In this document: in pieces, positions 5,972-29,432 of the stretch
How the letters are laid out: each line of letters begins with the position of its first letter
Position numbering within the stretch: the first letter of the stretch is position 1
Assembly: GCA_021157815.1 (NCBI GenBank)
Contig: JAGGVT010000067.1
Location: 1-33,439 of the forward strand
Length of the DNA: 33,439 nucleotides
Source of the DNA: a bacterium
GTDB taxonomy: Bacteria > JAJVIF01 > JAGGVT01
Direction of reading: 5' to 3'
Position numbers and translations under genes: made by a program
Notes under the pieces: generated by a model
Seen by the model: only the letters and a program-made list of their open reading frames with translations
Told to the model about the DNA's origin: nothing
Database searches by the model: none

Positions 5972-7594
5972 TCAGAATTCATATAAAATCCCCAAATTGA
6001 AAATATCATCATTAAAGATACTTTCACCACCTACCACTATGAAGACATTATCTGAGATTCCAATTCCGCCATACATGTCGAACACCACATCGTTGGGGTC
6101 ATACAAATCGCTTTTAATGAAGAAATTATCCAGATGGTAATCCAATCCGAGTCCAACTTTCGAGCGTTTAACGCCAAACCTGAGGTCGAAAACTTCATCC
6201 AGATTGAATCCCAGCTGCATGTTCAGAAGATTATCCTCTCCGATTTCATCGAGTCCAACTGTAAAATAAATCTGTTTCTCCGGGTTATACAAGTAGAAAT
6301 CAACGCCGCTGAAGTATGTGTCCTTTTCCGGCCTGAATCGTGATTTGAATTCGCCTGAAAACTCAAGGTCTGAAACTTTTTCAATCCTGTTCTTCAAATC
6401 CTGGACTGTCTTTTTAGTGGTTTCAAGTGTATCACGCACAGAATGGACACTTTCCTTCAATTCGCCTTTAAGTTCAGGATCATCGGTTATTTCCTCGATA
6501 TCCGCCAGGATTCCCTCAATCTGGTCCGCAATGCTTTCAATACGTTCGGAGATATTCTTTACCGAGTCTTGCAATTCGGGATCCTCCATAAGATCACGCA
6601 TTGATTTACTAGCCGATTCGATATTCTCCATTGTGGATGTAATGCGGGGTTTGTTATCATCGACGATATCCGCCAGTCCTACAGTAATGCTTTCAACATT
6701 GGCACCAATGCTTTCAATCTGCTCTTTCACAGAGGCAAACAGCTCATCAATCGCATCTTTATCGATAAGTCCCTCGATATCGTCAAGCAAATCCTGGAAC
6801 CTCTTAAGGACATTCAGTATTTCCTGGTTAAGTTCCTTGAGCTGCAATCCTGATTCCCGCACAACTTCATCAACGTGAGCGATTAAATCCTCCGGCCCTG
6901 CCTCACGCGACCCTTGAAAATATGATTCCTCCTCAAGCGGCGGGAAGACATCAATATAAGTAACCTGAGTATATTTTTTGGTTCCGCTGTCCCAGAATTT
7001 TCTTTCACCCGGAACGAACGCGTATGTTTTATCCACATTAATTGATTTGTCAATCTTCTTTACTTTTGCTCTATCAAACCCGGATTCGGATATTTCCACA
7101 TCAACAATCTGCCCAATCAGTTTTTCCTCACCATCATGGAAGTAATGAAGCCAGTCGTTTTTCCTTACTTTGCTTTTCAATACTTTTACATAATAGCAAT
7201 CTGGTTCCTCATCAGCATCACAGTCAAAATATCCGCCGGCAGGTTCGGATACCTCTATATATGAACTGCCCAGAAGACTTTCCTTGGTTATAATCACTTC
7301 CGCATTTTCATGGACAACATTTCCTTTTCCAAAGATACGCACTGTTACACTTACACCGCTCAACGGGCTGATGTCTGTCATTTCAACCAGCCCAACCTCC
7401 TTGCCGTTTATCTTGAATTTGGCGCCTTTATTCAAACCGCGAATGGATGCAAAATGAAAATGCAGGCGGTATTCATCCTGTCTTTTCCCTATAAATTTAA
7501 CCACACCAAAATAAGAGAGCATAAGCAGTATAAAAAATACTGCCATAATTACCCAGAAACCAACCTTGGCGGCGTCTGATACTTTTAAATCCAA
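5972..7594 (-). CDS. mlaD: Long MlaD: MCE-domain lipid transporter subunit with C-terminal barrel-like domain
   Basis: A 540-residue MCE protein, much longer than the roughly 180-residue E. coli MlaD. Order of parts: membrane helix at about 10-30; MCE domain at about 38-118 (IRGLNKGAKFKINGKEVG, then LLGSSYIEVSEP); an extra charged beta-rich stretch to about 220; a long heptad-like helical region at about 225-400; and a C-terminal region of alternating short amphipathic strands (about 400-540) ending in Phe, as outer membrane barrels do. Members of this long type in diderm Firmicutes (Veillonella) have been described as transenvelope bridges. The TTG start is supported by GAGG eight bases upstream. 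It lies between mlaF and tamB in one operon. The MCE assignment is firm; the barrel is read from strand pattern and the terminal Phe only. Confidence 0.92.
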   Translation of the reverse strand: MDLKVSDAAKVGFWVIMAVFFILLMLSYFGVVKFIGKRQDEYRLHFHFASIRGLNKGAKFKINGKEVGLVEMTDISPLSGVSVTVRIFGKGNVVHENAEVIITKESLLGSSYIEVSEPAGGYFDCDADEEPDCYYVKVLKSKVRKNDWLHYFHDGEEKLIGQIVDVEISESGFDRAKVKKIDKSINVDKTYAFVPGERKFWDSGTKKYTQVTYIDVFPPLEEESYFQGSREAGPEDLIAHVDEVVRESGLQLKELNQEILNVLKRFQDLLDDIEGLIDKDAIDELFASVKEQIESIGANVESITVGLADIVDDNKPRITSTMENIESASKSMRDLMEDPELQDSVKNISERIESIADQIEGILADIEEITDDPELKGELKESVHSVRDTLETTKKTVQDLKNRIEKVSDLEFSGEFKSRFRPEKDTYFSGVDFYLYNPEKQIYFTVGLDEIGEDNLLNMQLGFNLDEVFDLRFGVKRSKVGLGLDYHLDNFFIKSDLYDPNDVVFDMYGGIGISDNVFIVVGGESIFNDDIFNLGILYEF

Positions 7595-26577: not shown

Positions 26578-28602
26578 TCAAATGCTTCGCATATACCCGA
26601 GTCTTCCGCCATCATCATTCCACGATATGTGCAAACGTGAATCGTCGTCAATATACAAATTATTAATCATACCCGGCACTCCAATATCGATTGATTCACT
26701 CCAGCTTGAACCGTCATCGCTGGTTTGAATTATCATGTTTCCTGCGGAATACAGGAGATACAGTTTGTTTGTGTTTGGGTCAACCCGCAGCGATGGCGCA
26801 TTCGCATTGGTATCAACATCATCAATAACAACCGAGGTTGAGAATGTAACTCCGCCATCCTTTGAAACATTGTATCGGACATCATCATAAGCGCCGTCCG
26901 AAAGATCAATCCAGACAACATGGATATAATCGTTGCCGTCGCAGGCAACACATGCGAGTCTTGAATCATTATCTGATTCGTTGAGCTGGTAAGCCAGTGA
27001 ATAGGAAACACCGACATCAGTTGACCTTGTCACGTAAACGCCGTCATTACCGGAATAATCACTCATGAAAGCGACAAAGATATTGCCGTTGGAATCACAG
27101 TCCATGACCGGGAACATTTCAGACGAACCCGTAGTTGGAAAGATATTGTAGCTAAGGTCAAGAGCAGGACTCCAGCTTGAACCGCCATTCAGGGTAGTTT
27201 GTGAAAACAAGCTGAAAGCAAACATTGGCGCGCCGTTTCTAATCGCGTGGATTATGTCGTTATCCACAACTTCTATGTCACAAAACAGCTCAAGATATGA
27301 TCCGCTCATATAGATATCATTTTCGAATGTGATGCCGTTATCCTTGCTTCTAGCGTATTCCATGTACGAACCGAATCCGGAAAGGTCTCCTCTACACCAT
27401 ACGGCATGAATTGTGCCGTCCGGGGAAACATCGAAAGCTGGAGATAAATGAATTGAAGCCGGATCGGGGGAATTAACCATTGTCGCCGGGTATTCAAAAG
27501 TATCGCCGCCGTCAACACTTCTCATCAAGCCAATCTGCTGATTATCCAGCTGATCATCATAGGAGTAGATTAGATATATATTGTCGTCGTATCCGTTTAT
27601 TCCCTCGCCACCCATTGAGCAACAATCAATAGTGGTATCGAATGTATATTCATCTATCAATCGCGGTGATTCAAATTCCAAACTATCGTCACCAACATCC
27701 AAAACAAGGAAATCATAGAGGATTACAGTCGAACCGGGCGACATTCCACCGAAGATTACATTATAAGTTCCGACTGATGCGCCCTGCGAATTTGTTATTT
27801 CCGCTGTGTATGTTTCAGTAGCAGGCTGATATTCAAGGAATGTCAATCCTCCTGTAAATGGCGTTGTATCAGCCGCCGCGATAACGACATCATCCTGATG
27901 ATCCTTGAATTTGACGCTTATTTCAGCGTTACCGCCTGATGGCGTCATGTACGATGAAGTTTGGATATCATGGATTTCAAAAGGTTCAAGGCACTGGTTT
28001 GGAAACGATGCCACAATCAGATAATCCACAAGAGGATTCGCGCCTGTTGGAAAAGCGAGTTCAAGCAGTTCAGTATCGATTGCACCCGGACCCACATCAA
28101 AAGCCCTGTCGTCATTTTCCTTCATGAACGCTATCTGCGGATTGAATGGAAAACCGCCTGAAGGGTCAAACAAGCTTGTGTAGCTATCGGAATTAAGCAC
28201 TTCCTTGCCATATAAATTAGTGAAAATCATTCGAACATCATAGACCTGCAGGGATGTTGGATTTTCAATCTTGAGTTCAATTGACATTACTTCATCGACA
28301 TACGACAGGATTTGATATCTGAAACATCCTCCCGTACATCCTGACGCTATAAATCCTGTGATGTCATAATTGGCACTTCCCGCCCGTTCTGTAACTGTGA
28401 TGGTTTCCGTGAAGGGGTCAATATCCATAGTGCCCATGAACATCAAACCGTAGCCGCTAAATTCAGGATTCATCAAATCGAAATTGCCAAAGGTCGTTTG
28501 GCATGATTCCGACACTGGAATCATTGGCTGATTTGAGGCATTGGAACAGCCGGATGTGAAAATAAACAAGACAAACAAAAGGAGAAGAAAGGAGAATCGC
28601 AT
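26578..28602 (-). CDS. Asp-box (BNR) beta-propeller lipoprotein
   Basis: A 674-residue predicted surface lipoprotein with signal peptide and lipobox TSGC (lipid Cys19). Residues 35-320 form a beta-rich base with a Cys pair (C89, C93) placed as in two other lipoproteins here, and motifs such as IELKIENP and GTYNVIFGG. The C-terminal half has six or seven sialidase-type Asp-box units, for example SVDGGDTFEYP, SKDNGITFEND, TLNGGSSWSPA, SKDGGVTFSTS and SDDGSSWSES, each preceded by a strand like HVVWIDL. A six-bladed propeller is expected; sialidase catalytic Arg residues are not evident, so binding is likelier than hydrolysis. The ATG at 28602 starts the signal peptide and has GGAG seven bases upstream; the earlier in-frame start is not used. 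Confidence 0.84.
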   Translation of the reverse strand: MRFSFLLLLFVLFIFTSGCSNASNQPMIPVSESCQTTFGNFDLMNPEFSGYGLMFMGTMDIDPFTETITVTERAGSANYDITGFIASGCTGGCFRYQILSYVDEVMSIELKIENPTSLQVYDVRMIFTNLYGKEVLNSDSYTSLFDPSGGFPFNPQIAFMKENDDRAFDVGPGAIDTELLELAFPTGANPLVDYLIVASFPNQCLEPFEIHDIQTSSYMTPSGGNAEISVKFKDHQDDVVIAAADTTPFTGGLTFLEYQPATETYTAEITNSQGASVGTYNVIFGGMSPGSTVILYDFLVLDVGDDSLEFESPRLIDEYTFDTTIDCCSMGGEGINGYDDNIYLIYSYDDQLDNQQIGLMRSVDGGDTFEYPATMVNSPDPASIHLSPAFDVSPDGTIHAVWCRGDLSGFGSYMEYARSKDNGITFENDIYMSGSYLELFCDIEVVDNDIIHAIRNGAPMFAFSLFSQTTLNGGSSWSPALDLSYNIFPTTGSSEMFPVMDCDSNGNIFVAFMSDYSGNDGVYVTRSTDVGVSYSLAYQLNESDNDSRLACVACDGNDYIHVVWIDLSDGAYDDVRYNVSKDGGVTFSTSVVIDDVDTNANAPSLRVDPNTNKLYLLYSAGNMIIQTSDDGSSWSESIDIGVPGMINNLYIDDDSRLHISWNDDGGRLGYMRSI

Positions 28603-28715
28603 GATAACGCTCCAAAGAAAGGATAAGAAATTAACAGCCTGCCTGTAATTTGATTTAACAAGCCTGCCTGAAATAATTATAATACCTAATATTTTATTTG
28701 CAATCCAAACGTGGA

Positions 28716-29432
28716 TTATTCTGAAATGGACCATCCTTCCGGAAGGTCATCCTCTTCGATTTCCTTGTCTCTGCGAAGATCAACAGGCTGGACATCTTTC
28801 GATCTGGTTTCCACAATTCTATCCCCGGCATCTTCACTAAACTCCAGGGATTCCTCTGCAAAAAGCCTTTCCTTGCTGATAACCGCTTTATATTGCTCAT
28901 AATGCCTTGCTTTCTGATTATCCATTTCACTTGTTGCTTTCATTATAATTCCCTGAAGGTAATCCTCAGCGGCATCAAATTGTTTTTCTACAATCAGCAT
29001 GTCAAGTTTGATATCCCCCTCCCAGCCTTGAAGCTGCTCTCGAAATCTGCCTGTACCGGTAGGCGCTGATTCCTCGGCAAAAACCCTTGTGACAAGCCTT
29101 GCGCCTGACCGCCTCGCTTTGGATTTGCTTACAATGACCGAATGATAAATCAGATATCCCCACAAACCAATCAATGCCAGGAAGAAATTGATTATCACCA
29201 TCAACCAAAACGGATAATTAACATCCTCAGCAGCTAGAACTGAACCCCAGTATCGATGGTTGAAAAAGGCGGCTATCGCGCCAATGATACATGCGCCGAC
29301 AGTATAGAAACCTATTCCATACTTTGAATGGGATTCCCAGCCAAGCATTAGCATCGTTACGAAATACGCGATGAAAATAAATATCGCTATTACAGTTGAT
29401 GCTATTGAAATCCCTAATGTTATCTCGACCAT
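28716..29432 (-). CDS. Membrane protein of unknown function with acidic cytoplasmic tail
   Basis: I do not recognise this 238-residue protein. Three hydrophobic segments are visible (about residues 5-28, 40-57 and 72-94 from the chosen start). They are followed by a basic patch (SKSKARRSGAR) and a charged, probably helical, soluble tail of about 135 residues that ends in an acidic EIEEDDLPEGW stretch. By the positive-inside rule the tail should be cytoplasmic. The preferred start is ATG 29432 with AGGGG eight bases upstream; an ATG 18 bases earlier lacks a site. The gene lies 113 bases ahead of the Asp-box lipoprotein on the same strand, so the two may form an operon. Confidence 0.7.
   Translation of the reverse strand: MVEITLGISIASTVIAIFIFIAYFVTMLMLGWESHSKYGIGFYTVGACIIGAIAAFFNHRYWGSVLAAEDVNYPFWLMVIINFFLALIGLWGYLIYHSVIVSKSKARRSGARLVTRVFAEESAPTGTGRFREQLQGWEGDIKLDMLIVEKQFDAAEDYLQGIIMKATSEMDNQKARHYEQYKAVISKERLFAEESLEFSEDAGDRIVETRSKDVQPVDLRRDKEIEEDDLPEGWSISE

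Follow-up and report, generated by a model that had tools for sequence, protein, structure and literature searches.

The 540-residue MlaD protein encoded in the window (the whole 33,439-nt stretch of DNA analyzed here) is very probably a barrel-bearing long MlaD of the Veillonella parvula type, forming the proposed one-protein bridge across the cell envelope. The plan itself is already published as a kind: it was described in V. parvula (Grasekamp 2023), where the MlaD barrel was recovered in the outer-membrane fraction, and the barrel has been reported in 103 MlaDs, which make up about 10% of the MlaDs and mostly occur where MlaA and MlaC are absent (PMC10665443). The first-pass annotation had named this precedent, and the literature confirms it. 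What is new relative to the published long-MlaD plan is an extra domain between the MCE domain and the helices. Features of the operon and of the protein are collected in Table 1.

Table 1. Genes of the mlaD operon and segments of the long MlaD protein, in window coordinates.
Feature	Positions	Strand	Basis
mlaE, permease, 281 aa	8430..9275	(-)	PF02405 E=1.5e-63; sole MlaE in genome
mlaF, ABC ATPase, 256 aa	7648..8418	(-)	PF00005 E=9.6e-35; best NCBIfam model MlaF PRK11831, under its cut-off
long mlaD, 540 aa	5972..7594	(-)	TTG start; sole MCE (PF02470) protein in genome
N-terminal transmembrane helix, residues 7-34	7493..7576	(-)	hydrophobic stretch; helix in AF2 model
canonical MCE domain, residues 41-117	7244..7474	(-)	PF02470 E=2.2e-9; Foldseek matches with MlaD structures (best E=3.9e-7)
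extra domain, residues ~122-232, phylum-specific, possibly a degenerate second MCE	6899..7231	(-)	4/4 phylum genomes; HHalign P=0.00067 to MCE profile
helical region, residues 235-405, presumed to wall the tunnel of the hexamer	6380..6892	(-)	AF2 helices, low pLDDT
C-terminal ten-stranded domain, residues 411-540, putative outer-membrane beta barrel	5975..6364	(-)	AF2 strands, residue alternation, Allisonella homology
candidate C-terminal beta-signal NLGILYEF	5975..5998	(-)	fits BAM beta-signal consensus
tamB-like gene, 1560 aa	1277..5959	(-)	PF04357 E=1.2e-7

The coordinates first assigned to mlaD (5972-7594) were exact; the strand, previously unstated, is minus, and the plus strand of this interval has stops throughout. 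A GAGGT Shine-Dalgarno-like site lies upstream of the TTG start codon. The operon order is mlaE-mlaF-mlaD-tamB on a single strand, with mlaE and mlaF upstream of mlaD and the tamB-like gene beginning 12 bases past its end. As had been noted, none of the neighboring genes in the window is an mlaA, mlaB or mlaC. Two further minus-strand genes of the window encode a 1044-residue protein with LVIVD repeats (PF08309; 18230-21364), which is probably surface or secreted, and a protein of 718 residues in which BNR repeats are weakly matched (26578-28734).

Genome-wide searches extend this picture beyond the window. The 3.2-Mb draft, 90.9% complete, encodes one MCE protein and one MlaE, and models for MlaA (PF04333) and MlaC (PF05494) matched nothing in it up to E=10. 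At that completeness either gene could sit in a gap; three relatives from the same phylum, however, are without both, yielding no MlaA match and for MlaC only one sub-threshold match (E=0.33). Each of these relatives has one MlaE. The six-component E. coli Mla system, by comparison, includes both MlaA and MlaC. The genome also encodes LpxC and two Omp85 proteins, a set that makes an LPS diderm equipped with a BAM-type insertase plausible. The Omp85 genes are at G000:C44:4679-5623 and C200:3539-4369, and the second may encode a TamA-like partner of TamB.

Our phylum sample comprised the window genome and the three relatives (n = 4), whose MlaDs align with the window protein over their full length at 27-32% identity. 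Scanning the named genomes returned two phylum members and the Negativicute Allisonella histaminiformans. In all four phylum genomes tamB lies directly downstream of mlaD, while the transporter genes are less constant: one relative (G002) has mlaF-mlaD-tamB on contig C4 and mlaE on another contig (C2:549666-550307), and in a second (L030) neither mlaE nor mlaF adjoins mlaD. The conserved pair is thus mlaD and tamB. The third relative (L031) bears the record name "Planctomycetota bacterium"; PVC bacteria are reported to be without barrel-bearing MlaD (PMC10665443), so its true placement matters.

The protein has the general layout first proposed for it: 540 residues, a membrane helix, a single MCE domain and a C-terminal Phe, all borne out by sequence, Pfam and AF2. 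The MCE match is far over chance (PF02470, E=2.2e-9), and outside this domain Pfam returned nothing but coiled-coil noise. AF2 modeling of the full-length chain used an alignment of four rows, to which a search of viral contigs brought no additions, and reached a mean pLDDT of 50.7 and a pTM of 0.30. Helices were placed, at low pLDDT, at residues 235-271, 279-298, 300-336, 339-369 and 373-405, a region of 171 residues that agrees well with the earlier estimate of about 175. Ten strands were predicted within residues 411-539 at a pLDDT of about 60; this low-confidence model of MlaD alone fits the strand-rich C-terminus also recognized in the first-pass annotation.

Because the AF2 model is weak, we base the case for a barrel on homology, the pattern of strands and the beta-signal. 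We built a barrel-only HMM from the final 133 alignment columns of the phylum's four MlaDs alone, with the helices excluded. Its matches include the MlaD of Allisonella (E=2.3e-17) and, at E down to 4e-28, the C-terminal ends of MCE proteins from many further families, and many of the matched proteins terminate in GxxxxF or a variant of it. By profile comparison, then, the C-terminal domain is homologous to that of Negativicutes MlaD. Alternation of hydrophobic residues along the ten strands exceeds that in all 5000 shuffles, and the terminal NLGILYEF matches the BAM beta-signal consensus, zeta-x-G-x-x-[aromatic/hydrophobic]-x-[aromatic/hydrophobic] (PMC10945584). An outer-membrane barrel is largely supported by these three lines of sequence evidence. 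The earlier suggestion that the organism uses the Veillonella plan is likewise backed by the barrel homology and by the lack of MlaA and MlaC.

Like the window protein, the V. parvula MlaD has a transmembrane helix, a single Pfam MCE domain and a stretch of long helices, and its ten-stranded C-terminal barrel has a putative counterpart here; there too MlaA and MlaC are absent, and TamB is functionally linked, since tamB mutations suppress mla mutant phenotypes (PMC10665443). The V. parvula protein differs in length (419 vs. 540 residues), and only here do we see the extra domain of about 110 residues and an mlaD that directly adjoins tamB. Allisonella (L032) combines a homologous barrel with MlaE, MlaF and TamB in one cluster; its MlaD has 382 aa, and a tolC-like gene separates mlaD from tamB (mlaE-mlaF-mlaD-tolC-tamB). 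Mycobacterium smegmatis Mce1 (8fed) also joins MCE domains to long helices in an envelope-spanning tube, which is, in contrast, a heterohexamer of six distinct chains that each contribute a single strand to a common barrel at the tip (PMC10665443).

From this layout we infer a hexamer, its placement in the membranes, its lipid and its direction of transport. Two MlaE and two MlaF would form an inner-membrane ABC transporter from which six MlaD chains are suspended. The MCE domains would make a ring with a lipid pore, on which the extra domain may be stacked, perhaps as a second ring, and the six long MlaD helices would enclose a hydrophobic tunnel spanning the periplasm. The ten-stranded barrel at each C-terminus, presumably inserted by BAM via NLGILYEF, would fix the bridge to the outer membrane. 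Phospholipids would travel through the tunnel with no need of MlaA or MlaC, most likely from the outer to the inner membrane, and the co-encoded TamB would work in the opposite direction.

The last step of this path could equally be drawn another way, and we give an even chance to the barrel being only an outer-membrane anchor or clamp. In that case lipids would exit where the tunnel reaches the inner leaflet of the outer membrane, and the rest of the path would fall to TamB or a different protein. Grasekamp et al. judged that a single barrel is too narrow to let a phospholipid through and that six barrels are unlikely to form a ring, and suggested that the barrel domain may serve anchoring in some bacteria (PMC10665443). 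The adjacency of tamB and mlaD throughout the phylum sample, even with mlaE displaced, also fits an anchor. Such a role is nonetheless compatible with the one-protein bridge, from which it differs in that step only.

The extra domain had been described as charged and unexplained. It is real and conserved, since a profile search finds it in 4/4 genomes of the phylum; it is no more charged than the helices, as D, E, K and R make up 36% of both regions. Against 381 other genomes the extra-domain profile gave nothing below E=0.0025, and the four best outside matches (two solute-binding proteins, a glycosyltransferase-like protein and an SRP-type GTPase locus) were unrelated by inspection. The Allisonella MlaD has no such domain, and in two outside proteins compared (G259 and G079) the MCE-to-helix gap is only ~36 and ~23 residues. 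Modeled alone with AF2, the domain reached a pLDDT of about 72-85 over residues 130-179, with strands at 133-139, 148-153, 156-167 and 173-179, a spacing close to that of the first MCE strands (41-48, 59-62, 65-76 and 80-88).

Profile comparison and strand order weakly suggest that the extra domain is a degenerate second MCE domain, a reading to which we assign a probability close to, or just under, even. HHalign against a class-only MCE profile was unconvincing; against a 46-row MCE profile it gave a weak signal in the MCE register (score 22.3, P=0.00067, HHalign probability 27%). That score exceeds those of 200 column shuffles, and it stays at 21.8 with the class removed from the profile, where 42 TamB beta windows score <=14.5. 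Slightly short of an even prospect is also the alternative that a small beta domain unrelated to MCE, such as one resembling the C-terminal barrel of aminomethyltransferases, was inserted between the MCE domain and the helices. Pfam matched no second MCE domain in this region, and Foldseek returned nothing below E=0.049, with YgfZ as the top match at that value, the best MCE chain at E=0.14, and aminomethyltransferase-like barrels ranking as high as MCE chains. An unrelated insertion sits less well with the HHalign result, in its score and register, and with the MlaD and Mce4A chains that fill about one quarter of the top 50 Foldseek rows.

An MCE-like extra domain would make the protein resemble E. 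coli PqiB and YebT/LetB, which carry several MCE rings per chain (three MCE domains in PqiB and seven in YebT/LetB, unlike here); PqiB also has a helical tunnel. Neither is known to have an outer-membrane barrel. The window protein may represent an undescribed MCE architecture, for which we would put the chances overall a little below even: a single chain would combine two stacked rings, of which one is canonical and the other degenerate, with a helical tunnel and an outer-membrane barrel, and this design would be confined to one small phylum, where its gene is paired with tamB.

Finally, it is improbable that the C-terminal strands form a periplasmic beta domain and no membrane barrel, so that MlaD would stop short of the outer membrane: the low-confidence AF2 model and the acidity of the region (25 D/E vs. 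10 K/R) would suit such a domain, whereas homology to the barrel-bearing MlaD type, the residue alternation and the beta-signal argue for the barrel.

With the barrel-bearing MlaD, a little-sampled phylum joins the bacteria that seem to carry phospholipids via a one-protein bridge. That mlaD and tamB stay paired supports a functional coupling of two lipid paths, which has been seen genetically in Veillonella. Should the extra domain form another MCE ring, it would connect MlaD of the single-ring type with the multi-ring PqiB/LetB type, which is described as restricted to Proteobacteria (MCE types III and IV; PMC5561183), and would combine the multi-ring type with an outer-membrane barrel.
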